The notes under the pieces: model-generated
Database searches by the model: none
Seen by the model: only the letters and a program-made list of their open reading frames with translations
Told to the model about the DNA's origin: nothing
Made by a program: the position numbers and the translations under genes
Shown: positions 42,020 to 52,920 of the stretch, one piece after another
How the letters are laid out: each line of letters starts with the position of its first letter
How positions within the stretch are numbered: the stretch's first letter is position 1
Source: Thraustochytrium sp. TN22
Lineage: Eukaryota; Sar; Bigyra; Thraustochytrida; Thraustochytriidae
Direction: 5' to 3'
Length of the DNA stretch: 64,000 bases
NCBI GenBank assembly: GCA_013306675.1
Contig: JABLUY010000006.1
Coordinates: 295,434 to 359,433, forward strand

Positions 42020-45000
42020 TCACGGGCTATCGTTAGGGTCTAATAAATGGTAGAGCTCGTTGTGCTTCTCCTGAAGAGCAGCATGGATCGGGAGATGGCC
42101 CGAGCTGGAGGCGAGCGTGCGCGAGGCGCCGCGGTGGATGAGAAGCTTGCAGAGTTCCTTGTCGCCGTCAAAGGCAGCGTTGAAGAGGCACGAGAAGCCC
42201 TTAAAGGTGGCGTTGGGGTCTGCGCCGTGGTCAAGGAGGACGAGCACGCAGTCCAGCTTCTGCGCATAGGCGGCTTGATAGACGGCCGGTCCAGACTTGG
42301 TGGGATCGTGCACATCTACAAGGGCGCCATGTTTGAGAAGTAGCTTGAGGCAGTCAAGCTTGCCCAGCTCGGCGGCCCGCATGAGCGCGGTCTCGCCGTT
42401 CGGCGTGCGATGGTTGACCACAGCGTCCCGCGTCGCGTGTGAGCACGCTTCCAAAAACTCCAGAACGTCGACGAGGAGCGTCCAGAGTGGGTCTTTCACC
42501 GGGCTTTTGTCCCTTAGCAGGTCCCCGTCGCTCGCTGGATCTTTGGTTGGGATCCCAGTACTTTCCTCTACCGGCTCCGGCTCGCTGTCCCTCGCATGAT
42601 CGTTGTTTTTCGCCCCATCGCCAGTTCTCGCCACGAGGTCGATCAAAAGCGGCGCTTGCTTGCCTGCTTGCTGCGTGAGAATACGCGCAATGAGCTGGTC
42701 TGGGGTCATGCCCAAAATCTCCGCCGTGGGTGAATCCTGCATGATGCCAAGCACGTGGAAGAGCAGCCCATGCTCTTTGATGAGCTCGAGGTGGCGCAAG
42801 AAGGTGTAGGTCTGCTTTGCGAAGCGCACCGGGCCGAGCATGCTGGCAAAGCAGCCGAAGATGCGCGACGTCAGGGTGCTCGTCACGTCCAGCGGGATGA
42901 GCATCTTGAGCAGGAGGTACAGAACCGGCTGCCAGCGCGCATCCATGAGCAGCTTTACCTTTCGCACGCGATACTGGCCCTGACCGAGGGAGCTGGACAC
43001 CGCGCTCAGCGTCTCGTTCTCAACGTCCTCGTCGTCGTCGTCATCCTCATCACTAGCACCCTGATCGGCCTCACCTCCTCCTCCTACGTCCTCCTCCTCC
43101 TCCTCCTCCTCCTCCTTCTCGTCCTCGCCATCTGATGCGTTCAGTGACCTCGAATTTCGGTGCGAACTCTCCGAGTTTGCGTGGCAAAGCTCCGCCAGGC
43201 TCTCCTCATCCGAGTCCTCGTACATGATGTCCATATTGTCCTCGTCGGCCACCGCAAGTTGCGCATGGTCGCTGGCGCTCAGGTTGAGCTCAAGGAGAAA
43301 GTGCTCGATTGCGCTTGGCGCGAGGCGTTGAAGCTCGCGCACCATGTAGGCGGCCACGAGGTACTCTTGAACGACGCGAATGGCAAAGCGACCGTGGCGA
43401 TCCGTCCACGCACGTCCGTGGTCTGAGCTGTCGGCGTGCAGGAGCGGAAGGCTCGCGTTGCGAACGAGCGCCATGACAGCGTTGGCAATGCGCAGGCCCT
43501 GGGCAAAGCTGTCGGCAGGGGCGCCCGCCCGGCGCGAGAACTGCGTGACCGCGTCCGAGCACCAAAGGCCCAGTGCCCGGCGATTCTGGCGTCGCAGGTG
43601 CAGCGACAGCGCCAAACACTCGAGAAAGCTCTGGCCGTCTTCGCTCTGGCAGAGCTGAGAGCTTTCGCTGAGACGACGCGACGGCTGAATGGCAGCCGGC
43701 GAACGCATCAGATGGCGCACGGCGTACGAGAGGATACGCGGCACGCCCCAGTCCACGTCCTCGTCCTGATCTTCCTCGGAAACGGTGGGAGGAATTCTGG
43801 GAGAATCCTTTTTGTCGCGGCCAATCAGGAGCGACCGCGTTGATGACCTTTGCAGCAGGCGTCTGCGCGCCTGCCAGTGGTTGGTGAGCGCGACCACGAG
43901 CATCTTCACGAGAACCGGCGTGCCGCCGACGATCTCTTTGAAGACGTCCTTGTTCATCTCGGTCACGAGGTAGTCTTTGAGCTCCTGCGCGGGCAATTGG
44001 CTATCCTCTGTGCGAATGTTCACCTGGTCCACGTGCGAGTGCGCGAGTTGCTTGACCTGCTCAAGCGAGAGATGCTTGACGTGGACAAAGGTCATGTGCT
44101 GGACGCCGAGCTTGATCTCCCGCTCTCGGCGCGCCGTGAGGATGGCAATCACGTCATCATGCGCCTCAATCCACGCGAGCAGGTCGGCGCGCGTCTCGGG
44201 CCGCATGTCATCCATGCCATCCACAAAGAGCATGACCTTGCCATTTTCCAGCGCCTGTAGCAGCAGGTCAAACATCGGCGAGCCTTCGCCGTAGAGGTGC
44301 GCCCAGAAGAGCTCCATGACGCCAAGCAGAAGGTCAAAGTGCTCGGGGACGCTGCGACCGACCTGGCCCAGCCTCGGAAGTTTATCCGGACCTGGCAGCT
44401 GCATCGGGGACTGAAGACTGCGCGTGGGGCTCGTGCGCAGCTCTTGTTGGTGCCAGCGGAGCACGTCGCGCTGCTGAAAGACGCTCGCGCGGCCCGGGAG
44501 GCGGTCGCGCGAGGCATTGGAAGGTCCGCGCGGCGCACGGCGCCCCCGGACCGAGGCCGGCGGTGCAATAGGCGGCACGCGTCCATTTGTCGCGCTCGCA
44601 GCCGCGGCCGCCGCGGCCGCTTGCGGAGTTGGGGTCGTGTCCGGGTGCTCGGCGAAGAAATGCGCAGCCCGCACCATGGTGCTCAGCGGCCGCGTGTTGC
44701 TCGCAAAGTGCGTGCCGCCAAAGGTAAAAACCGGCTGGTGACCTGCAGCCTTGGAATTTCGGCGCGACGTCTGTTGCAGCGTGAGGCTGCTGTCACCACG
44801 CAGCAAAAAGTCCACGTAGCCCTCGTCGCTTCCGTTCGACCTGCTCGCGCTGCCGCCCGAGCCGCGCGGCACCTCGACGCGCCGCCGCAGAAACTTGCAC
44901 ACGTCGATGGCATCCACGACCACCGGCATGTAGTATTCCTGCTCTGAGAGCGCCAAGGTAATGAGCTTCTTCAGGACGACCGTCTTGCCGGACGAACTCG

Positions 45001-48000
45001 GACCGCAGATGGACACTCGGCGGGCCTGCACCAGGTCGACGCCCAGCATAGCCTGCGCCGCTTCGAAGAACCGCGTGCTGCGCTCGTTGATGGAGACGTT
45101 GGTGCACGCGGACCCGAGCTGCAGCGGTGGCGGCCGTGCCTTGCGCGCCAGCGATCGCTGGCCGAAGCTGCTGCAACTCGGCTCGCCGTCAAGCGAGGTC
45201 CTCGCGGCGTCCTCGTCACCGATCTCCGCGCTGTCCGCCGCGTCCGAAGGGGCCTTGCCGTGGCTTGTCAGGGCGGCCCGCTTCTTCGCCTGGACCGCAA
45301 TGCTGATGGCGGGCTCTACGTCGAGGTCCAGCGTATCGTCGATGCTAAACACCTCGCCGGAGATCGGGTCTAAGTGATGGCTGCACTTGACGGCGATGCG
45401 GTTCCGATACGAGCGCAGATGCACCTCGTCACGAAAACGCGTCGTCACGACAAGGCCGGGCGTGATGGGCAGGTTTTGCGGAAGAAAGGAGGCCCTGCGC
45501 TCCATCTGCTCGCTGCGCAAGCCCATGAGCGAGCCTGCATGCAAGAGAAGCGCGGTCAGCGCGAGCTGTCGGTGTGCGGTGGTGGTGTCAGGAAAGGTGA
45601 TGGCACGCGCTGCGTAATAGGCCATGCCGGCGTGATACTGGCGGATGTCGCACGCGTCGCGAGCGTACTTGGCACAGTAGTCACGCAGCAGCTTGCAGGA
45701 CTGCCAGGCGAACTGCATGCGCGCGATCTTCTCCTTGGTAATGCGACTGTCGGTCTCGTGCCTTGACGCACGCACGATGGGCTCCAGCACGGCGCGGTCC
45801 AGGTCGCCGGGGACTGGGTCGCGCAGCGATTTGGCGCCTGCCGTGAGCGCGTCCATGAGCAAAACTGCCGTGTGAAACTCCTCCGGCAGGTCGAGGGCCA
45901 GGTATTCAAAGAGGATGCACGAAGTCAGCTTGCACAAGTCGCGCAGCACGTGATGGCGGCCGCTGTGCGCAAAGTCGATTACCCACGGGATGCTCTGCGC
46001 GTCGATGACCACGTTGGCCGCGTTGAGGTCGCCGTGGCACACGCCTTCGTAATATTCGACCAAGGTGGCGTCTTCGGAGTCGCCGCCGAGCCAGGTCGCG
46101 AACTCAAGCAGAAAGTCAAAGAGCGCGCCGGCTGAGTCCGAGGGCCGCGAGTCGACGCGCGGTGCCTCGCGGAAGTTCACCAGAGACCACAGTCCGGCGT
46201 GCGAGACGACCAGATGCGGGTCCCACACATTTTCTGCGATGAAGGTGGACTTGTCCGCGTTGAGCACGTGCTTGCGGAGGACGCCCTCCAGGTTGTACAG
46301 GTCGCGACGCACGTCGCCCAGCTTGCGCTCCTGTTCCATGATGGAGCTCTGCACCGTGCAACGCTCGAAAATCTCGCCAAAGCACTCAAGCAGGACATTC
46401 TGCACCGAGTGCATGGCGCAGGCGTTGCGGTAGACGAGCGATGCGCGCATCGGGTTCGCATCGGCCGATTGCATTTTTGATAAGAACGTGGTGGCGTTTT
46501 CTTGGCGCTGTAGGCGGTCCAGAGAGATCGGCTTCATGAAGCGTTGGTCATTGCGAAAGTCGATCTGCTTTTGCTCGTACAGGTAGAGGTCCTTGAGCGT
46601 GATGAGCTGGCCGTTCGCGCTCTGACCCGCGACGCCGCGGAAGAAGGACTGCTCGCCTCCGGCCAGTGAAATCATGATGCCGCCGCGCCCGTGTTCAACG
46701 CTCATGAAGCGGCCGAGGACGTGCGGCGCGTGGTCTCCCAGGTACGCCAGCATCATGCGGTGCCGCTCCTCCTCCTGGCGAATCGCCTCGAGGCTGTCAA
46801 GCTTAATGACCGTGGCATCGTGCACGCGACCCTCAATGTCCACGCTAATGGCCTGCAGTACAATGGACCCGGAGAAGCCGCCGGCGAGCTTGCGAAGCCG
46901 GATCGAGCAGCTGTTTGGGCACAGCCCACGGATTACGCACAGATCACGCTCGGACAGCGCCGCCGTCTCGTTCTGATTGTCCCAGGTGATCATGACATCC
47001 TCCAGCACCTCCGCGAGACAGATCACTTCATCCATCGTCACGAAGACCTTGCTGGGGTTGATCCCGCTCCGCGAAATGGCCTCGTCGATCTGCATCGACG
47101 TGAATCGGCATTTGTACGCAAGCAGCTTGCGCAGGACGTCGATACGCACGCTCTCGTGAACGTCCAGGTCCTGCGCCTGCATCTCCTTGAGGAGGAACGG
47201 CAAGAACGAGAAGGCCTCCCTGTTCTCGTTTCCTTGGGTGGCATCCGCGTCGGCTTGCAGATTGCGCGTCGACGCATGTGACATCCGGCCCAGGTGGTGG
47301 CGAAACGCGCTGCGCGCAGCGCTGACGTTCGATGCAGTGCTGCTTTTGCGGCGCGGACTCTCCTCGCCGTGCTCGCTGGAGAGCGGCGCCTCCATCCAGT
47401 CCCAGCAGAGTCGGACGCGCGTCGGGCAGCGCTCCATCTGTGTGCGGTACACCGCGAGCGTGGGCGAGTCGCGTACGTGGTTGACCGACGACCGGATGCT
47501 CTCCACGCGCGTTTCGAGGTCCAGCCCCACAAGGCGCGCCGAGAAATAGTATGTGTAGATGGCCTCTGCGAAGGGCTCGAATCGAGAGTTGCTCACGCGC
47601 CGCTCAGGTTTCGGCGGGCCGGGCCGCCGCGCATCGCCCGTCACCATGAGCTCCACCCATTCCTGCACATCGTCCGGGTCCTCAATGCTTGAGGACGTCG
47701 TGCTATCCGTCTCAGGCGCATCAAAAGCAGCATTCGATGCCGTCGCCTCCTCGCTTTGCAGCGCCGTGTCAAAGCTCTCGAGGCTTGTTTGCCTCGACAC
47801 GCCCGCGTGCGTGCTCTGCGACGGGCGGCGGAGCGAGCCGGTCCCAGATTCGCGCCCGATGTTGTGCTTCTCCTCGGCGTCCGGCTCGTCGTCGCCCTCC
47901 GGGATTTGGCGCACCCCAAGTCGGAGATCTCCCGTGCTCTGGCACATGGCTTCGCTTCGCTGCAAATGATGCTGCTGCTGCACGACTTCGCGGCGCGGAC

Positions 48001-48916
48001 CGAAGCGAAAGAGATTCCTGGCCGATGCCGAGGCGGAGACGGGCCGCTGCGCCTCGAAGCGCCGGAGATCTCGCGAGATGGGCTGCACATTGACGAGGTC
48101 CACCATCCCAGTCTCGGACTCTTCGTCTACGAAGGAGACCGCCTCGGCTTCTCCTTTGGCCGCAGCCTTCTCCTCTTGCTCGTGTTTCTCGTGATCGTTC
48201 TTGGCCGCGATCTCGTTGTCGTCTCCCTCCTCGTTTTCCTCCCCCCTCTCCTCATCAATAAAAGGTATCGCGCTCCGGGGCGCAGGGCGCTCGCTTCGTG
48301 CCAGGGCGCGCTCACGGTAGCGCAAACCAGTCACAAGCCACTTTTGCAGGCTTTCCTCGACAAAGCGACGCGCGCCCTCCCAGTTATGCACCGCGACGGG
48401 AAGGAGGAAGGAAATGCCGCCGTGTTCGCTCCATGCTTCGAGCGAGCCATCCGGCAAGACGATGTGCGTTGGGACGAGGACGCGCGATGGGTCGGTGACG
48501 CCATGGATCGTCACAAAGCACACACGGCTCACCAGCTCGCAGTTGTCCGGGCGCAGCTGTTCTTGCGGCTCATGCGACTCGTGCGGCTCGTGCGAGTCCG
48601 CGTCGGGGCCCCGTGCAGCATCACTGACGCTGTCGCCGCGCCCAATAAGGCCTTTCCGGAGCAGCTCCGCAAGCTCGGACCGCCGTGTCGAAGACCGCAC
48701 CTGGCGCAGCAGCTCACGCTCGCCGTACAGACGCGTCGCGGGCTGCGGCGACGCTCCTTGCGGCGCCTCGGCCTGCGGCTCGTCGCTCCCTGGCTCGCTC
48801 TCCGCGGCCCGCGGACTCTCGTTCACCCTGGCATCTAGCTGCCGCACCTGGCTGATGCGCTCGCGGACTGCGCTGATGGACTTCATCTCGCCGTGGGGGG
48901 GCCGTGCGCCGTCCAT
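42020..48916 (-). CDS. APH-like kinase / NACHT-like NTPase / ankyrin protein
   Basis: A 2,298-residue single-exon protein built like an NLR/STAND sensor. Residues 1-640 hold disordered segments and an unassigned globular part (SRVCFVTIHGVTDPSRVLVP). Residues about 670-1000 look like an aminoglycoside-phosphotransferase-type kinase fold: glycine-rich LAGGFSGSIVLQA (about 675), a candidate lysine in ATVIKLDS, the catalytic loop VCHGDLNAANVVID (about 957) and metal Asp in WVIDFAHSG (about 975). The NTPase has P-loop ICGPSSSGKTVVLKKL (about 1302), Walker B VMLFVDGMDDM (about 1559) and sensor-like ILTARRERE, typical of NACHT. Helical and acidic regions follow, then about four ankyrin repeats at 2167-2285 (NGETALMRAAELGKLDCLKL). 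Such proteins oligomerise after ligand sensing; the ligand and output here are unknown. The start is the first ATG (48916); 48886 is an alternative. Confidence 0.88.
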   Translation of the reverse strand: MDGARPPHGEMKSISAVRERISQVRQLDARVNESPRAAESEPGSDEPQAEAPQGASPQPATRLYGERELLRQVRSSTRRSELAELLRKGLIGRGDSVSDAARGPDADSHEPHESHEPQEQLRPDNCELVSRVCFVTIHGVTDPSRVLVPTHIVLPDGSLEAWSEHGGISFLLPVAVHNWEGARRFVEESLQKWLVTGLRYRERALARSERPAPRSAIPFIDEERGEENEEGDDNEIAAKNDHEKHEQEEKAAAKGEAEAVSFVDEESETGMVDLVNVQPISRDLRRFEAQRPVSASASARNLFRFGPRREVVQQQHHLQRSEAMCQSTGDLRLGVRQIPEGDDEPDAEEKHNIGRESGTGSLRRPSQSTHAGVSRQTSLESFDTALQSEEATASNAAFDAPETDSTTSSSIEDPDDVQEWVELMVTGDARRPGPPKPERRVSNSRFEPFAEAIYTYYFSARLVGLDLETRVESIRSSVNHVRDSPTLAVYRTQMERCPTRVRLCWDWMEAPLSSEHGEESPRRKSSTASNVSAARSAFRHHLGRMSHASTRNLQADADATQGNENREAFSFLPFLLKEMQAQDLDVHESVRIDVLRKLLAYKCRFTSMQIDEAISRSGINPSKVFVTMDEVICLAEVLEDVMITWDNQNETAALSERDLCVIRGLCPNSCSIRLRKLAGGFSGSIVLQAISVDIEGRVHDATVIKLDSLEAIRQEEERHRMMLAYLGDHAPHVLGRFMSVEHGRGGIMISLAGGEQSFFRGVAGQSANGQLITLKDLYLYEQKQIDFRNDQRFMKPISLDRLQRQENATTFLSKMQSADANPMRASLVYRNACAMHSVQNVLLECFGEIFERCTVQSSIMEQERKLGDVRRDLYNLEGVLRKHVLNADKSTFIAENVWDPHLVVSHAGLWSLVNFREAPRVDSRPSDSAGALFDFLLEFATWLGGDSEDATLVEYYEGVCHGDLNAANVVIDAQSIPWVIDFAHSGRHHVLRDLCKLTSCILFEYLALDLPEEFHTAVLLMDALTAGAKSLRDPVPGDLDRAVLEPIVRASRHETDSRITKEKIARMQFAWQSCKLLRDYCAKYARDACDIRQYHAGMAYYAARAITFPDTTTAHRQLALTALLLHAGSLMGLRSEQMERRASFLPQNLPITPGLVVTTRFRDEVHLRSYRNRIAVKCSHHLDPISGEVFSIDDTLDLDVEPAISIAVQAKKRAALTSHGKAPSDAADSAEIGDEDAARTSLDGEPSCSSFGQRSLARKARPPPLQLGSACTNVSINERSTRFFEAAQAMLGVDLVQARRVSICGPSSSGKTVVLKKLITLALSEQEYYMPVVVDAIDVCKFLRRRVEVPRGSGGSASRSNGSDEGYVDFLLRGDSSLTLQQTSRRNSKAAGHQPVFTFGGTHFASNTRPLSTMVRAAHFFAEHPDTTPTPQAAAAAAAASATNGRVPPIAPPASVRGRRAPRGPSNASRDRLPGRASVFQQRDVLRWHQQELRTSPTRSLQSPMQLPGPDKLPRLGQVGRSVPEHFDLLLGVMELFWAHLYGEGSPMFDLLLQALENGKVMLFVDGMDDMRPETRADLLAWIEAHDDVIAILTARREREIKLGVQHMTFVHVKHLSLEQVKQLAHSHVDQVNIRTEDSQLPAQELKDYLVTEMNKDVFKEIVGGTPVLVKMLVVALTNHWQARRRLLQRSSTRSLLIGRDKKDSPRIPPTVSEEDQDEDVDWGVPRILSYAVRHLMRSPAAIQPSRRLSESSQLCQSEDGQSFLECLALSLHLRRQNRRALGLWCSDAVTQFSRRAGAPADSFAQGLRIANAVMALVRNASLPLLHADSSDHGRAWTDRHGRFAIRVVQEYLVAAYMVRELQRLAPSAIEHFLLELNLSASDHAQLAVADEDNMDIMYEDSDEESLAELCHANSESSHRNSRSLNASDGEDEKEEEEEEEEDVGGGGEADQGASDEDDDDDEDVENETLSAVSSSLGQGQYRVRKVKLLMDARWQPVLYLLLKMLIPLDVTSTLTSRIFGCFASMLGPVRFAKQTYTFLRHLELIKEHGLLFHVLGIMQDSPTAEILGMTPDQLIARILTQQAGKQAPLLIDLVARTGDGAKNNDHARDSEPEPVEESTGIPTKDPASDGDLLRDKSPVKDPLWTLLVDVLEFLEACSHATRDAVVNHRTPNGETALMRAAELGKLDCLKLLLKHGALVDVHDPTKSGPAVYQAAYAQKLDCVLVLLDHGADPNATFKGFSCLFNAAFDGDKELCKLLIHRGASRTLASSSGHLPIHAALQEKHNELYHLLDPNDSP

Positions 48917-49470
48917 GCCGCCACCCTGCGCCACGCCGGCGCGGGAGCTCCGTCCAGCGCCAGCCTCTGTTTGCCACGCGCCCGCGTCGTCGGCCTCCTT
49001 CTCCAGCAGTCGGCCAGACTCCCTCCGAGTCCTTCCTTCAGTTCGTTACCTTCGGAGCACGCGGCGCCAGGTTTCCTCGCGCGCGGCCGCGGATCACAAC
49101 CACCGCTGACCTGCTGGCAACCCCAGGCTGCGCTGTTCATCTTCCCCTCGGCACCACGTGAGCGGAGAGTCCAACTCGCGACTTCGCGACTTCATTCTTC
49201 CACTTGTGCTTGGCGTCGCGCAGAGAAAGAAAATGCGAGCCGCGCGCCGCCTGTGTGCGCCGCAACGGATCCGAGTCCGAGTCCGAGTCTAGCCTGCGGG
49301 CTGACGCCAGCTGACGTCAGCGAGCCCAGCGCGCGAACCAGAATCACCGTCGATCGGCCGCTGCGACCTCTGCGACAGCAAAGCGCATCGAGGCTGCCGC
49401 CGGCCGACGCCGGCGCCTCGGCGGGCCGCGCTCCGCCGCGCCGCGCGCCGCGCGCCGCGCACGCAGCGCC
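48917..49470. other. Divergent intergenic region
   Basis: Shared upstream region of the NACHT-like gene (-) and the PDZ gene (+). It contains GAGTCCGAGTCCGAGTC at about 49270-49288, TGACGCCAGCTGACGTCAG (two TGACG elements) at 49302-49320, and a very GC-rich CGCGCCGCGC run just before the PDZ start. No gene seen. Confidence 0.5.
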
Positions 49471-52400
49471 ATGCGGGCGCGAACGGCGCTGCTGGCGGCG
49501 GCGCTGGGCCTGCTGGTGCTCGCGGCCACGCTGGAGCTGCGCGGCGCCGCGGCGGCCGCGGGCTTCGGCGACGGCGACGGCGGCGGCGACGGCGGCGAGG
49601 ACGGCGTGACGGTGGACGGCAGGTGCACGCGGAGCGTGCTGTTCAGGGAGGGCCTGGGCGTCGGCCTCGGGATGCGCCTCAAGGCGATGGCGGACGGCCG
49701 CGTCGTGGTGCAGAACGTCAAGCCGCGCAAACCGGCCGCCAAACTCGGTGTCAGGAGCAACGAGGAGATCGCGCTCATCGGCGGCGAGCCTGTGGCTGGC
49801 CTGCGCATGGATGACGTCACCAATCTGCTGCGTCGCGTCCGCGCGGCGCACAACGGCCACGTGGAGATCGCCCTTTTCGTGCCATGCCCCGAGCCCGCGC
49901 CGGAGGAGCCAATACGCGAGGACGATGACAAGGGCAAGGTCAACGACGAGGCGGAGGGGGGAGACGAGGAGGAGGTGATTGCGCCGCCCGAGCCTGAAGC
50001 AGCCGAGGAGGCGAAGGCGGAGGAGGAGGAGGAGGAGGAGGAGGTGCTGGTGTCCGAGAGTGTAGACGAAGAGCCGGAGGGCGCAAGTGAAATTCCGCCG
50101 GAAGACGTTGACCCGGAGGCTCGCACTGTGCAGGTCGCCGAGCTGGGGCCCTTTCCACTCGATCTAGATGCCCTTCCGCTCCTCGTCACGTCCCCGGGTG
50201 ACCAGCAGTTCGTGGTCTGGGTGCGCAAGTGCGAGACCATGTCGCTCGGCCTCAAGGTCGGCAAGCGCGAGGATGGCGGTCTCTCGGTCAAGGCCATCAA
50301 CGTCGCTGCATGGCACGACACTGAGCTTCAGGTGGGCGACGCGCTGGCTTCCATTAACAACCGCGCGGTGCCCAGCGGCAAGGCGCTGCAAGCCGCCCTT
50401 CAGGCCAGCCCAACCGACGTGACGACGGTCTTCGCGCGGACGCTCGACTCGCCCGACGCGTCCGTGCCGCCGGCTGCCTTTGTCTATTACGCGGATCTGC
50501 AGAGATCCAGCACCGTTCTGCTCAAGGGTGGGCGGCCCGTCTTCGAGGAGTGGCGAGGGGCTCTCCGCGTCGTCGATGCCTCGGCCTTTCCTGCTTTTGC
50601 GAACGTTCGAGCTGGCGACCTTTTGCTGCAGACTGCGACCACGAGGTTCCCCTCCTTTGACGCCTTGCAGGACCAGTTCGCTGGTCCTGACCCGGTGCGC
50701 TGTCTGTTCCTTCATGGCGACCCTGGCTCGCTCGTGCAGTCGATCGTCCTCGGCTGCCCGCCTTCGGACAGGGACGAGTCCACGGAAGCGGGCGACGCCC
50801 AGGAGCTTGAACATAAGAGCGACGCGGGCGGGCATGAACGCGAATTGAGTGGTCAAACGGGAAACATCGAGCCGGCGGTGGCCTCTGCTGACGTGGAGGA
50901 GGCAGCAGACCGCGAGGCGCCGGGCGCTGAACATGGCGACGATATTTCTGAGAAGGACGACAGCGAGGAGGTGGGCGAGGCGGAGGTCGACCCCTCCGCA
51001 GAGGGCGCCGAGGAAGCTGGTCAAAACGAAGATCTGGTGGACGAGACTGCGCAAGCCGACGACCAGCGAGACGACGACGACGACCAGCGAGAGGATCCTG
51101 AAAGTAACCAGGACGGGAGCCAGGACGTTGAGCGCCAGGACAAGGGTTCGGAGGAGGTGAATGAGGTCACCGAGGATGACCACGTCGAGGGAGGAGAGGA
51201 CCTACTGCATGGTGAGGTATCCACCAAGATGGAAGAAGCGATTGCCGCTGCGATGCCGCCAGAGGAAGGAGCTGTGGTGGAGGATGACGAAGACGAGGAC
51301 GATGACGACGAGGACGACGACGACGACGACGAGGGTGAAGTGGAAGAGAACGAAGGCAAGGAGGACGACGAGGAGGACGACGAGGAGGACGACGAGGAGG
51401 AGGAGGAGGACGACGGCGAGGAGGAGGAGGAGGTGGTGGTGGTGGTGGTGGTGGATGAAGAGGAGGAGGGCAAAAATGGCGAGGAGGATGTGTTTGAAGA
51501 AAATGACAAGCTAGAGGAGGAGGAGAAGCTCGAGACGGAGGCCGAGGCTGAGGAGGCAAATGAGCTTGGGAACGAGGGCGCCCCCGGGAACGAAGACGAG
51601 CCTGAAAACGAAGATGAGATGGACCCAGCGGAAATGGCCAGCTCCGGGTTCGATCGAGAGCACGGCGAAGGAGAGGAAGCGGAGATCGACGAGGGTGCGG
51701 AGGCACCTGCCGAAGCGATCGAGGTGGCACCTGTTGAGGCGGTCGAGGAGGCGTCTGACGAGGCGGACGAAGATGCGCCTGCCGAGGCGACCGAGGCGGC
51801 AGGGAGCATAGCAGAAGAGCCCTTGACGAATGAGCCAAGTGAAGTGCTAACTCCTGCCGAGGAGGACCCCGTCAGTGAAGAGGCTTCGGACGAGTGGGAC
51901 CTGGGCGGTCTCACAGCCCCAGATGGTGCCAAGGTGGCGGAGGCAAGCTTCGAGGTACGGTCGTTCAAGACGTGCCGCACAGAGCCGCTGGGCCTGCGCA
52001 TGGGCAAGAGCAAGGCGACGGAGGGCTTCTACGTTAAGGAGGTGCTGAATGAGGCGTGGCTGGGCACGGGCGTCCGCGTCGGGGACCATGTGGGCCTGGT
52101 GAACGGCGAGGCGGTGCCGGACGCGGAGACTCTGCGGCAGGCCCTGGAGAGGGACACGGAGGCGACCACGATCGAGTTCCGGCGCGCGCTGCTGCATCAG
52201 CGCGCGGACGATCGCGCTCTGGACTTCGTGGTTGAGGTGGAGGCGCGGCCGATGCGTGTGCTGCAGGCGTTCTCGTGGGCAGCAGCCGATTCGCTGCGTG
52301 TAGAGTCTCTGGATGAGGAGGCACGCGCTCTGGGGCTAATGGAGGGCGACGTCATCCGAGCGGTGGACGGCGCCAAGGTCCCGCATCTAGCCAAGTTCAT

Positions 52401-52920
52401 GGACGTCTTGCGAGATTTGGACATGGACGGCCGCAGCGCGCGCGTGCTGCGGCTCGAGGTTCGCCGCGGCGTGGCGGGCAACTTCAGAGACAAGGTCATC
52501 CTGGAGGCCGCCGAGGAGTGTCCCGCAGATTTGGAGCAGCAGCAGCAGGAGCAGCGGCGGCGGCAGGATGGGGACGAAAAGGTGAGGCCGCCGGAGGCAA
52601 AGACACCTCCAAAGGCCGCAACGGTGCCCACAAGAGCGCCCGCAACAGCACCGGGGTCGGCGCCCGCGATGGCGCGGGCCAAGGCAGACAGCGACAAGAA
52701 GGCAGCTTCCGCCGTGGGGGCGGCGGGGCAGCAATCGGAGCACGAAGAGGCTGGCGCTGCCGGCCTCGCAAGCGTGCTGGGCGCTGCCGGCGTAGACCCA
52801 GCTGCCCTTGTAGCGGAGGTCCTACAGGACGTAGAGTTCCAATCGGCCCTGGGCGTGGCGCTGGCGCGCGCCCTGGGGCGGCTCACCGAGGGCAGCGACG
52901 GCGCAGGTAACCAAGGATAG
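49471..52920 (+). CDS. Secretory-pathway multi-PDZ acidic protein
   Basis: A 1,149-residue protein. It begins with a cleavable-looking signal peptide (LLAAALGLLVLAATLEL, residues about 6-22). Five PDZ-like modules are visible: 63-136 (GLGVGLGMRL), 246-326 (MSLGLKVGKREDGGLSVKAI), a degenerate one at 338-415, 827-906 (PLGLRMGKSKATEGFYVKEV) and 919-1005. Residues about 425-810 are a highly acidic Glu/Asp linker with a Val run from GGTGGT codons. The C-terminus is Ala/Pro-rich and helical. There is no transmembrane helix after the signal and no protease motif. The acidic region suggests calcium buffering or a lumenal scaffold, but this is only inference. The start ATG at 49471 directly precedes the signal peptide. 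Confidence 0.8.
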   Translation: MRARTALLAAALGLLVLAATLELRGAAAAAGFGDGDGGGDGGEDGVTVDGRCTRSVLFREGLGVGLGMRLKAMADGRVVVQNVKPRKPAAKLGVRSNEEIALIGGEPVAGLRMDDVTNLLRRVRAAHNGHVEIALFVPCPEPAPEEPIREDDDKGKVNDEAEGGDEEEVIAPPEPEAAEEAKAEEEEEEEEVLVSESVDEEPEGASEIPPEDVDPEARTVQVAELGPFPLDLDALPLLVTSPGDQQFVVWVRKCETMSLGLKVGKREDGGLSVKAINVAAWHDTELQVGDALASINNRAVPSGKALQAALQASPTDVTTVFARTLDSPDASVPPAAFVYYADLQRSSTVLLKGGRPVFEEWRGALRVVDASAFPAFANVRAGDLLLQTATTRFPSFDALQDQFAGPDPVRCLFLHGDPGSLVQSIVLGCPPSDRDESTEAGDAQELEHKSDAGGHERELSGQTGNIEPAVASADVEEAADREAPGAEHGDDISEKDDSEEVGEAEVDPSAEGAEEAGQNEDLVDETAQADDQRDDDDDQREDPESNQDGSQDVERQDKGSEEVNEVTEDDHVEGGEDLLHGEVSTKMEEAIAAAMPPEEGAVVEDDEDEDDDDEDDDDDDEGEVEENEGKEDDEEDDEEDDEEEEEDDGEEEEEVVVVVVVDEEEEGKNGEEDVFEENDKLEEEEKLETEAEAEEANELGNEGAPGNEDEPENEDEMDPAEMASSGFDREHGEGEEAEIDEGAEAPAEAIEVAPVEAVEEASDEADEDAPAEATEAAGSIAEEPLTNEPSEVLTPAEEDPVSEEASDEWDLGGLTAPDGAKVAEASFEVRSFKTCRTEPLGLRMGKSKATEGFYVKEVLNEAWLGTGVRVGDHVGLVNGEAVPDAETLRQALERDTEATTIEFRRALLHQRADDRALDFVVEVEARPMRVLQAFSWAAADSLRVESLDEEARALGLMEGDVIRAVDGAKVPHLAKFMDVLRDLDMDGRSARVLRLEVRRGVAGNFRDKVILEAAEECPADLEQQQQEQRRRQDGDEKVRPPEAKTPPKAATVPTRAPATAPGSAPAMARAKADSDKKAASAVGAAGQQSEHEEAGAAGLASVLGAAGVDPAALVAEVLQDVEFQSALGVALARALGRLTEGSDGAGNQG

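Follow-up and report, generated by a model that had tools for sequence, protein, structure and literature searches.

A TCAD9 kinase joined to a divergent NACHT-type NTPase and ankyrin repeats in a thraustochytrid suggests a small family of NLR-like proteins

In the genome of Thraustochytrium sp. TN22, we analyzed a stretch of 64,000 nucleotides (here called the window; positions 295434 to 359433 of contig JABLUY010000006.1, labeled C420), part of a 37.9-Mb draft assembly in 453 contigs. A single unbroken open reading frame on its minus strand encodes a protein of 2298 amino acids, protein A, in which a kinase domain of the family TCAD9 (ternary complex associated domain 9) is followed by a divergent NACHT-type STAND nucleoside triphosphatase (NTPase) and by C-terminal ankyrin repeats. 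The frame starts with ATG and has a stop codon; an alternative GTG start at 48934 (42020 to 48934) is possible, and an in-frame stop lies upstream. From this architecture, and by analogy with known receptors, we lean slightly toward reading protein A as an NLR-like (STAND) switch with a phosphotransfer output, whose likeliest role would be in a stress, conflict, or cell-death response. A preliminary description, made from the DNA letters, had already proposed a single protein of this length with the order kinase, NACHT-type STAND NTPase, and repeats. All the motifs it quoted were present (HGDLNAANVV, WVIDFAHSG, GPSSSGKT, and VMLFVDGMDD), and the domain order was supported both by Pfam and by profiles built from paralogues.

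The kinase, previously left as APH/TCAD-type, was resolved to TCAD9 (PF19974) with 86 bits (E of 4e-24; Pfam cut-off 40), and the APH model scored 23.6 bits (cut-off 23.2). TCAD9 is, judging by its motifs, an APH-like kinase model. A leave-one-out profile of the paralogues described below, from which protein A was excluded, recovered its kinase with 208 bits (E of 2.7e-62). As controls for the leave-one-out profiles, 2000 shuffled copies of A and four family sequences read in reverse (a part in the case of C) were used, and these gave no matches at E ≤ 10. The predicted catalytic residues were intact in A, i.e., K705, D963, and N968 (motif HGDLNAANVV, residues 961 to 970) and D981 (WVIDFAHSG, residues 978 to 986), and in the alignment, GGFSG, VxK, HGDLNxxN, and IDFA were all retained in A and in its paralogues B and C. 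AlphaFold2, run on an alignment of four kinase rows, gave a model with a mean predicted local distance difference test score (pLDDT) of 63.7 and a predicted template modeling score (pTM) of 0.67. When this model was compared with the PDB using Foldseek, 1247 matches were obtained at E ≤ 10 and none at E ≤ 0.001; the best 50 of the 1247 were exclusively kinases or APHs, with CK1 first, and among these, APH(3′) types aligned over most of the model with low template modeling scores (TM-scores). The modeled domain thus appears to have a kinase fold. Against PDB sequences, the kinase profile matched GCN2 (1.6e-4) and Rio2 (2.2e-4) first, followed by choline kinase (0.034) and APH (0.17), and a search with the single protein reached Rio2 at an E of 0.16. 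Since protein kinases ranked first, with choline kinase and APH behind them, protein and small-molecule substrates would both be possible. No substrate is named in the portions of the TCAD9 literature that we found, and the finding raises the question of what TCAD9 kinases phosphorylate.

The region that follows (residues ~1267 to 1887) appears to be a divergent NACHT, homologous to accepted NACHT domains. The Pfam NACHT model (PF05729) gave 13.5 bits on the whole protein and 17.4 to 18.6 bits in segments, under its cut-off of 26.7, whereas a leave-one-out profile of B, C, D, and E recovered the domain with 42.2 bits (E of 5.8e-12), in two pieces around an insert of ~180 residues. The alignment contained the motifs of a STAND NTPase, namely, Walker A, Walker B (DGxDD), the sensor R, GxP, and the QEYL helix. 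Structural support, which had been expected for both domains, was obtained for the kinase; the NACHT model was poor (pLDDT, 54.1; pTM, 0.36), and its best 50 Foldseek matches were AAA+ ATPases (clamp loaders, ORC, proteasome, and FtsH; best E of 0.006). This model supports an AAA+-like NTPase but has no bearing on NLRs specifically. Searched against PDB sequences, the NACHT profile matched FtsK (0.0067) and then, over 34 residues at Walker A (E of 0.009), the entries 5irl/5irm, which are named as uncharacterized and which we take to be NOD2; a single-protein search of the same sequences with the NACHT returned nothing relevant.

At the C terminus, the expected ankyrin repeats were found with Ank_2 at 58.9 bits (cut-off 27.3). 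Matches of this part to AnkY and PDC-M72A (NCBIfam and PADLOC) were rejected as ankyrin cross-matches, the NCBIfam scores being far under their cut-offs. The predicted domains of protein A hence stand in the tripartite order of NLR-like receptors, i.e., effector, NOD, and repeats (Table 1).

Table 1. Features of protein A, with window positions, and related proteins encoded in the same genome
Feature	Position	Strand	Basis or score
Whole open reading frame, 2298 aa	42020..48916	-	Frame translation
N terminus, residues 1-440; rich in charged and low-complexity segments, without a credible match in Pfam	47597..48916	-	Pfam scans
Pre-kinase region, residues 441-654; weak paralogue conservation	46955..47596	-	Paralogue comparison
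TCAD9 (APH-like) kinase domain, residues 655-1133	45518..46954	-	Pfam, alignment, leave-one-out profile (208 bits), model and fold search
Glycine-rich loop GGFSG, residues 679-683; common to the 4 paralogues, GGFSS in D	46868..46882	-	Alignment
Candidate ATP-binding lysine K705 (VIK); 4/4 paralogues and 5/5 aligned bacterial TCAD9s	46802..46804	-	Alignment
Catalytic loop HGDLNAAN, residues 961-968 (D963, N968)	46013..46036	-	Alignment
IDF, residues 980-982, DFG equivalent	45971..45979	-	Alignment
NACHT-type STAND NTPase with helical C-terminal part, residues 1267-1887	43256..45118	-	Segment Pfam, alignment, leave-one-out profile
Walker A GPSSSGKT, residues 1305-1312	44981..45004	-	Alignment
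Insert between Walker A and Walker B, ~residues 1348-1525 (~180 residues); none in the four relatives aligned	44342..44875	-	Alignment; low pLDDT
Walker B VMLFVDGMDD, residues 1561-1570	44207..44236	-	Alignment
Sensor-1-like TAR (LTAR), residues 1594-1596; R aligned in 5/5 rows	44129..44137	-	Alignment
GGTPVLVKML, residues 1664-1673; corresponds to NPLMLSLL of B and C	43898..43927	-	Alignment
VVQEYLVAAYM, residues 1848-1858; counterpart of the QEYLA/QEHLA helix in B, C, and E	43343..43375	-	Alignment
Acidic low-complexity linker, residues 1890-1975	42992..43249	-	Sequence reading
C-terminal ankyrin repeats, residues 2167-2292	42041..42418	-	Pfam Ank models over cut-off
Paralogue B, frame of 2358 codons	C420, ~150 kb (same contig as A, 190 kb away)		TCAD9, 84.5 bits
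Paralogue C, frame of 3907 codons	C418		TCAD9, 108.3 bits (scanned as two overlapping pieces)
Paralogue D, frame of 1761 codons	C58		TCAD9, 68.5 bits
Relative E (L034/L047), NACHT and B-like ankyrin end, without TCAD9 kinase	C76, 62-67 kb		Ankyrin end by eye

A TCAD9 profile search of the same genome gave 15 places at E ≤ 1, and those above the cut-off fell in four frames, A to D, all with TCAD9 ahead of a NACHT-type NTPase. Frames were counted from stop to stop, and the numbers of family members are lower bounds. B, C, and D bear out the earlier expectation of paralogues with variable ends. NACHT scored above the Pfam cut-off in B, C, and E; in D, Pfam gave no NACHT at E ≤ 0.05, and the leave-one-out profile found it with 37.7 bits (E of 1.2e-10). 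The candidate ATP-binding lysine and IDF were kept in all four kinase-bearing proteins and HGDLNxxN in three, with a kinase-region identity to A of 24 to 35%. At the C-terminal end, the short ankyrin stretch of A is replaced by longer ankyrin arrays in B and D. C ends in a long stretch that looks HEAT-like by eye (HEAT_2, 14.2 bits; cut-off 27.7), followed by a second STAND-like P-loop (24.9 and 24.5 bits versus the NPHP3_N cut-off of 24.8). A DUF4062 seen by eye in the C-terminal half of C had no Pfam score and is not claimed. By sequence comparison, the core of the family is shared, and the C-terminal ends, and once the kinase, vary, which suggests that A to D are a small receptor family in one genome. 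The inner order of A to D in the kinase tree, and of A to E in the NACHT tree, was poorly supported.

These paralogues also bear on whether protein A could be an artefact, either adjacent genes fused by the gene model or the assembly, or a bacterial contaminant, as might be suspected from the draft state of the 453-contig assembly and from a kinase family known mainly from bacteria. Protein A lies in one unbroken frame, however, and the same domain order recurs in its three paralogues, of which B shares the contig of A and C and D lie on different ones. Furthermore, the host genome is eukaryotic, and of the eight other long window frames that we scanned, several code for proteins of eukaryotic type (a PDR-type ABC transporter, exportin-5, TMEM14, and a PX plus glycosyltransferase-28 protein). 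We therefore consider an artefact highly improbable.

A NACHT profile search of the genome listed 62 places, seven of which were over the cut-off by themselves, three of these being B, C, and E. Beyond these three, we scanned the other four above-cut-off loci (L030, L031, L033, and L035) and the sub-cut-off locus L037, with frames cut at the locus ends. The four were NWD1/NPHP3-like, with DUF4062 ahead of the NTPase (over the cut-off in L031 and L033 and under it in L030 and L035), TPR matches in L030 and L033, and weak WD40 matches in L031 and L035. L037 (C364, ~15 kb) was NLR-like, combining TIR_2 (49.6 bits), an NPHP3_N-type NTPase, and WD40 in one frame. In the unrooted NACHT tree, A to E were split from the four DUF4062 proteins with a support of 100/100. 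With TIR_2 and DUF4062 lying N-terminal to the other STAND NTPases, enzyme-type domains seem to fill that slot in this genome, and TCAD9 fills it in A to D; one protist genome would thus use three such domains there, i.e., TIR, DUF4062, and the TCAD9 kinase. In the part of a preprint available to us (PMC13174449), DUF4062 is described as a TIR-like NADase with activity both in TEP1 and in bacterial defence. Two further groups of frames were seen in the genome. On C54 (22 to 53 kb), seven large frames of 1375 to 1477 codons with similar weak P-loop matches form a tandem array, ~5 kb apart. L027 (C331) and L028 (C332) are two very similar frames of ~760 to 800 codons; their start looks like a coiled coil by eye, and near the C terminus both have the kinase-like motif HGDLELRN. 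L027 scored 27.5 bits with Pkinase, under the cut-off of 31.7.

We also looked for TCAD9 in 796 bacterial genomes, 398 from each of two phyla: the one to which the Natronospirales metagenome-assembled genome G001 belongs (probably Pseudomonadota) and the one to which the Clostridium genome G002 belongs (Bacillota). Matches above the cut-off occurred in six of the 796 genomes, three per phylum, and in none of 14 control genomes. The preliminary description had named universal housekeeping conservation as the outcome that would speak against it; in these bacteria, the kinase was instead rare and patchy. Two proteins, L074 (1471 codons) and L075 (1495 codons), carry TCAD9 followed by nSTAND_NTPase5 (25.0 and 36.3 bits, respectively; cut-off 34), a P-loop of GGST or GGTT, and weak TPR matches under the cut-off, and their kinases are 59% identical. 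The gene for L075 adjoins a type I restriction R subunit, and that for L074 adjoins a STAND protein whose N terminus matches PDC-M54A. Among the others, L076 (524 codons) had TCAD9/APH only, and L079 and L080, frames of 794 and 799 codons from Bacillota, had the strongest TCAD9 matches seen (256 and 216 bits), located C-terminally. Next to L079, on the opposite strand, is a frame that by eye resembles PP2C, and it was given no weight. In a separate locus, L077 (G055:C139), a TCAD9-like kinase under the cut-off (34.5 bits) is part of the same protein as a HamB-like DEAD helicase. In an unrooted kinase tree of A to D and five bacterial rows, a 100/99 split set off the three Pseudomonadota rows (L074, L075, and L076), leaving A to D on the side of L079 and L080; the sample is small, the branches are long, and the L076 row was flagged as unsure. 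Together with the different type of NTPase, this split suggests that the kinase-STAND fusion arose more than once. No relatives were found among viral contigs with either one protein or the four-row kinase alignment as query. Scanning the genome contigs gave four loci with short matches (40 to 65 query residues), two of them in genomes without an above-cut-off TCAD9. Among plasmids, A had no match; paralogue C had six there, all of them weak (E ≤ 0.1).

Kinase-STAND fusions are known in bacteria and fungi, so that the preliminary description of an unusual, undescribed system would hold only for the particular combination, a TCAD9-NACHT fusion in a protist, which is a new variant; TCAD9 itself was already described. 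Among the matches listed in open-licence papers, we found no TCAD9-NACHT protein and no protist kinase-STAND fusion, which leaves its absence from print unproven. The bacterial SAMD9 family resembles protein A in having, in many members, an N-terminal kinase, with a STAND-like P-loop NTPase and C-terminal repeats, as far as described in the parts of Mekhedov et al. 2017 (PMC5445408) that we used. Its mark is a GGT/S P-loop, and its repeats are TPR, in contrast to the NACHT with GKT and the ankyrin repeats of A. L074 and L075 resemble this family, their membership resting on the GGS/GGT P-loop and domain order rather than on a SAMD9 profile; since their TCAD9 domains lie across the 100/99 split from A to D, the bacterial and protist fusions look independent. 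TEP1, NWD1, NWD2, and NPHP3, according to the excerpted preprint (PMC13174449), share with A an enzymatic N-terminal domain, a NACHT, and repeats; theirs is the NADase-type DUF4062 instead of a kinase, and such NACHT domains fall in a different tree group. TCAD9 has also been tied to vWA-MoxR-VMAP systems (figure legend in PMC10910872), and, according to Kaur et al. 2020 (PMC7159879), conflict effectors include a few APH-like kinases that are active, the word TCAD being absent from the text seen. The kinase family of these VMAP ternary conflict systems is common with A by Pfam name, and theirs is linked with vWA and MoxR; Pfam gave neither a vWA nor a MoxR match for proteins A to D, and separate vWA, MoxR, or VMAP genes were not searched for in the genome.

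Fungal NLRs with PKinase domains (Dyrka et al. 2014, PMC4986451; Sordariales survey 2025, PMC12258605; both consulted in excerpt) likewise combine a kinase and a NOD domain in a microbial eukaryote. The excerpts from the Sordariales survey mention kinase domains of NLRs that have been proposed as integrated decoys, and the TCAD9 part of A might be a sensor or decoy, a pseudo-substrate of a pathogen kinase or modifier, rather than an output enzyme, as the loss of HGD in paralogue D would allow. However, the Sordariales kinase is PF00069 and sits C-terminal in 9 of the 12 kinase-bearing NLRs covered there, whereas TCAD9 lies N-terminal to the NTPase, the effector slot of STAND proteins, in all four proteins here, and A, B, and C retain its catalytic residues. 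A decoy therefore seems improbable.

If protein A is an NLR-like switch, its C-terminal ankyrin repeats would bind a ligand or partner, and this binding would free the NACHT NTPase for nucleotide exchange and multimerisation. The TCAD9 kinase, thereby crowded or released, might then move phosphate to a small molecule or a protein, with an intracellular stress, conflict, or cell-death response of the single-celled eukaryote as the outcome. Of the single roles, one in defence or cell death would be the likeliest, as suggested by analogy and by the company that the protein keeps. A more specific version, a protist inflammasome-like system, can be imagined, in which repeat sensors drive assembly through the NACHT, and the TCAD9 phosphotransferase so assembled, through phosphorylation of an essential factor or production of a phosphorylated messenger, either kills the infected cell or arrests it. 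The design would be independent of the bacterial SAMD9-like one, and we regard this version as unlikely.

Several results weigh against the reading as an NLR-like switch. Within protein A, the Pfam NACHT score is under the cut-off, the NACHT model is poor, and no NLR was found among its best 50 Foldseek matches. Pairwise similarity was also weak, as an own-genome search with the NACHT of A matched only itself and B (E of 4e-5), and one with that of E found B, C, and D, not A, at E ≤ 0.01. In D, the kinase retains the lysine and IDF and has HND in place of HGD, and its Walker B lacks acidic residues after DG, so that one family member may be dead or a scaffold. The family is small, with five members found and no tandem expansion seen. 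Of the bacterial genomes above the cut-off, 4/6 show no STAND with TCAD9 (L076, L079, L080, and G615, the last a 384-codon frame judged by its length only), L079 and L080, of which 638 and 641 residues were read, had no STAND or defence domain in that part, and it is these two, rather than the STAND-fused TCAD9s, with which A to D group. L074 and L075 themselves matched no PADLOC model at E ≤ 0.001. Eukaryotic STAND proteins such as NPHP3 are, to our knowledge, not known mainly for immunity.

Some of these results could also point to a non-immune signaling scaffold, i.e., a kinase under regulation that serves growth, nutrient, or lipid signaling and in which the NACHT acts as a conformational clock and not as a pathogen sensor. 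The low copy number (four proteins with the kinase and one without), the absence of STAND and defence domains from the nearest bacterial TCAD9s, and the resemblance of the other NACHT proteins of the genome to NPHP3/NWD1 types would fit such a role. However, the divergence of the paralogues and their differing ends would seem to fit conflict better than housekeeping, and both bacterial TCAD9-STAND proteins read adjoin defence-type genes. We consider the scaffold a tenable though less probable explanation, and an NLR-like switch with a phosphotransfer output remains the reading that we narrowly prefer. Immune-type STAND proteins have received much study in animals, plants, fungi, and bacteria but, as far as we know, little in protists. 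The thraustochytrid lineage has known viruses, and the TIR, DUF4062, and TCAD9 STAND proteins are testable candidates for intracellular defence in it.

Finally, some other loci were observed in the same genome. On the opposite strand, the gene for protein A is adjoined by one for a PDZ-domain protein with long acidic stretches (window 49471 to 52920, plus strand). On C124 (26.7 to 41.1 kb), a 3044-codon frame matching the PfaA polyunsaturated fatty acid (PUFA) synthase model with 2539.7 bits lies head to head with a 2083-codon partial match, a PfaA-type arrangement typical of thraustochytrids, and a 5691-codon frame on contig C410 has repeated matches to the same model.

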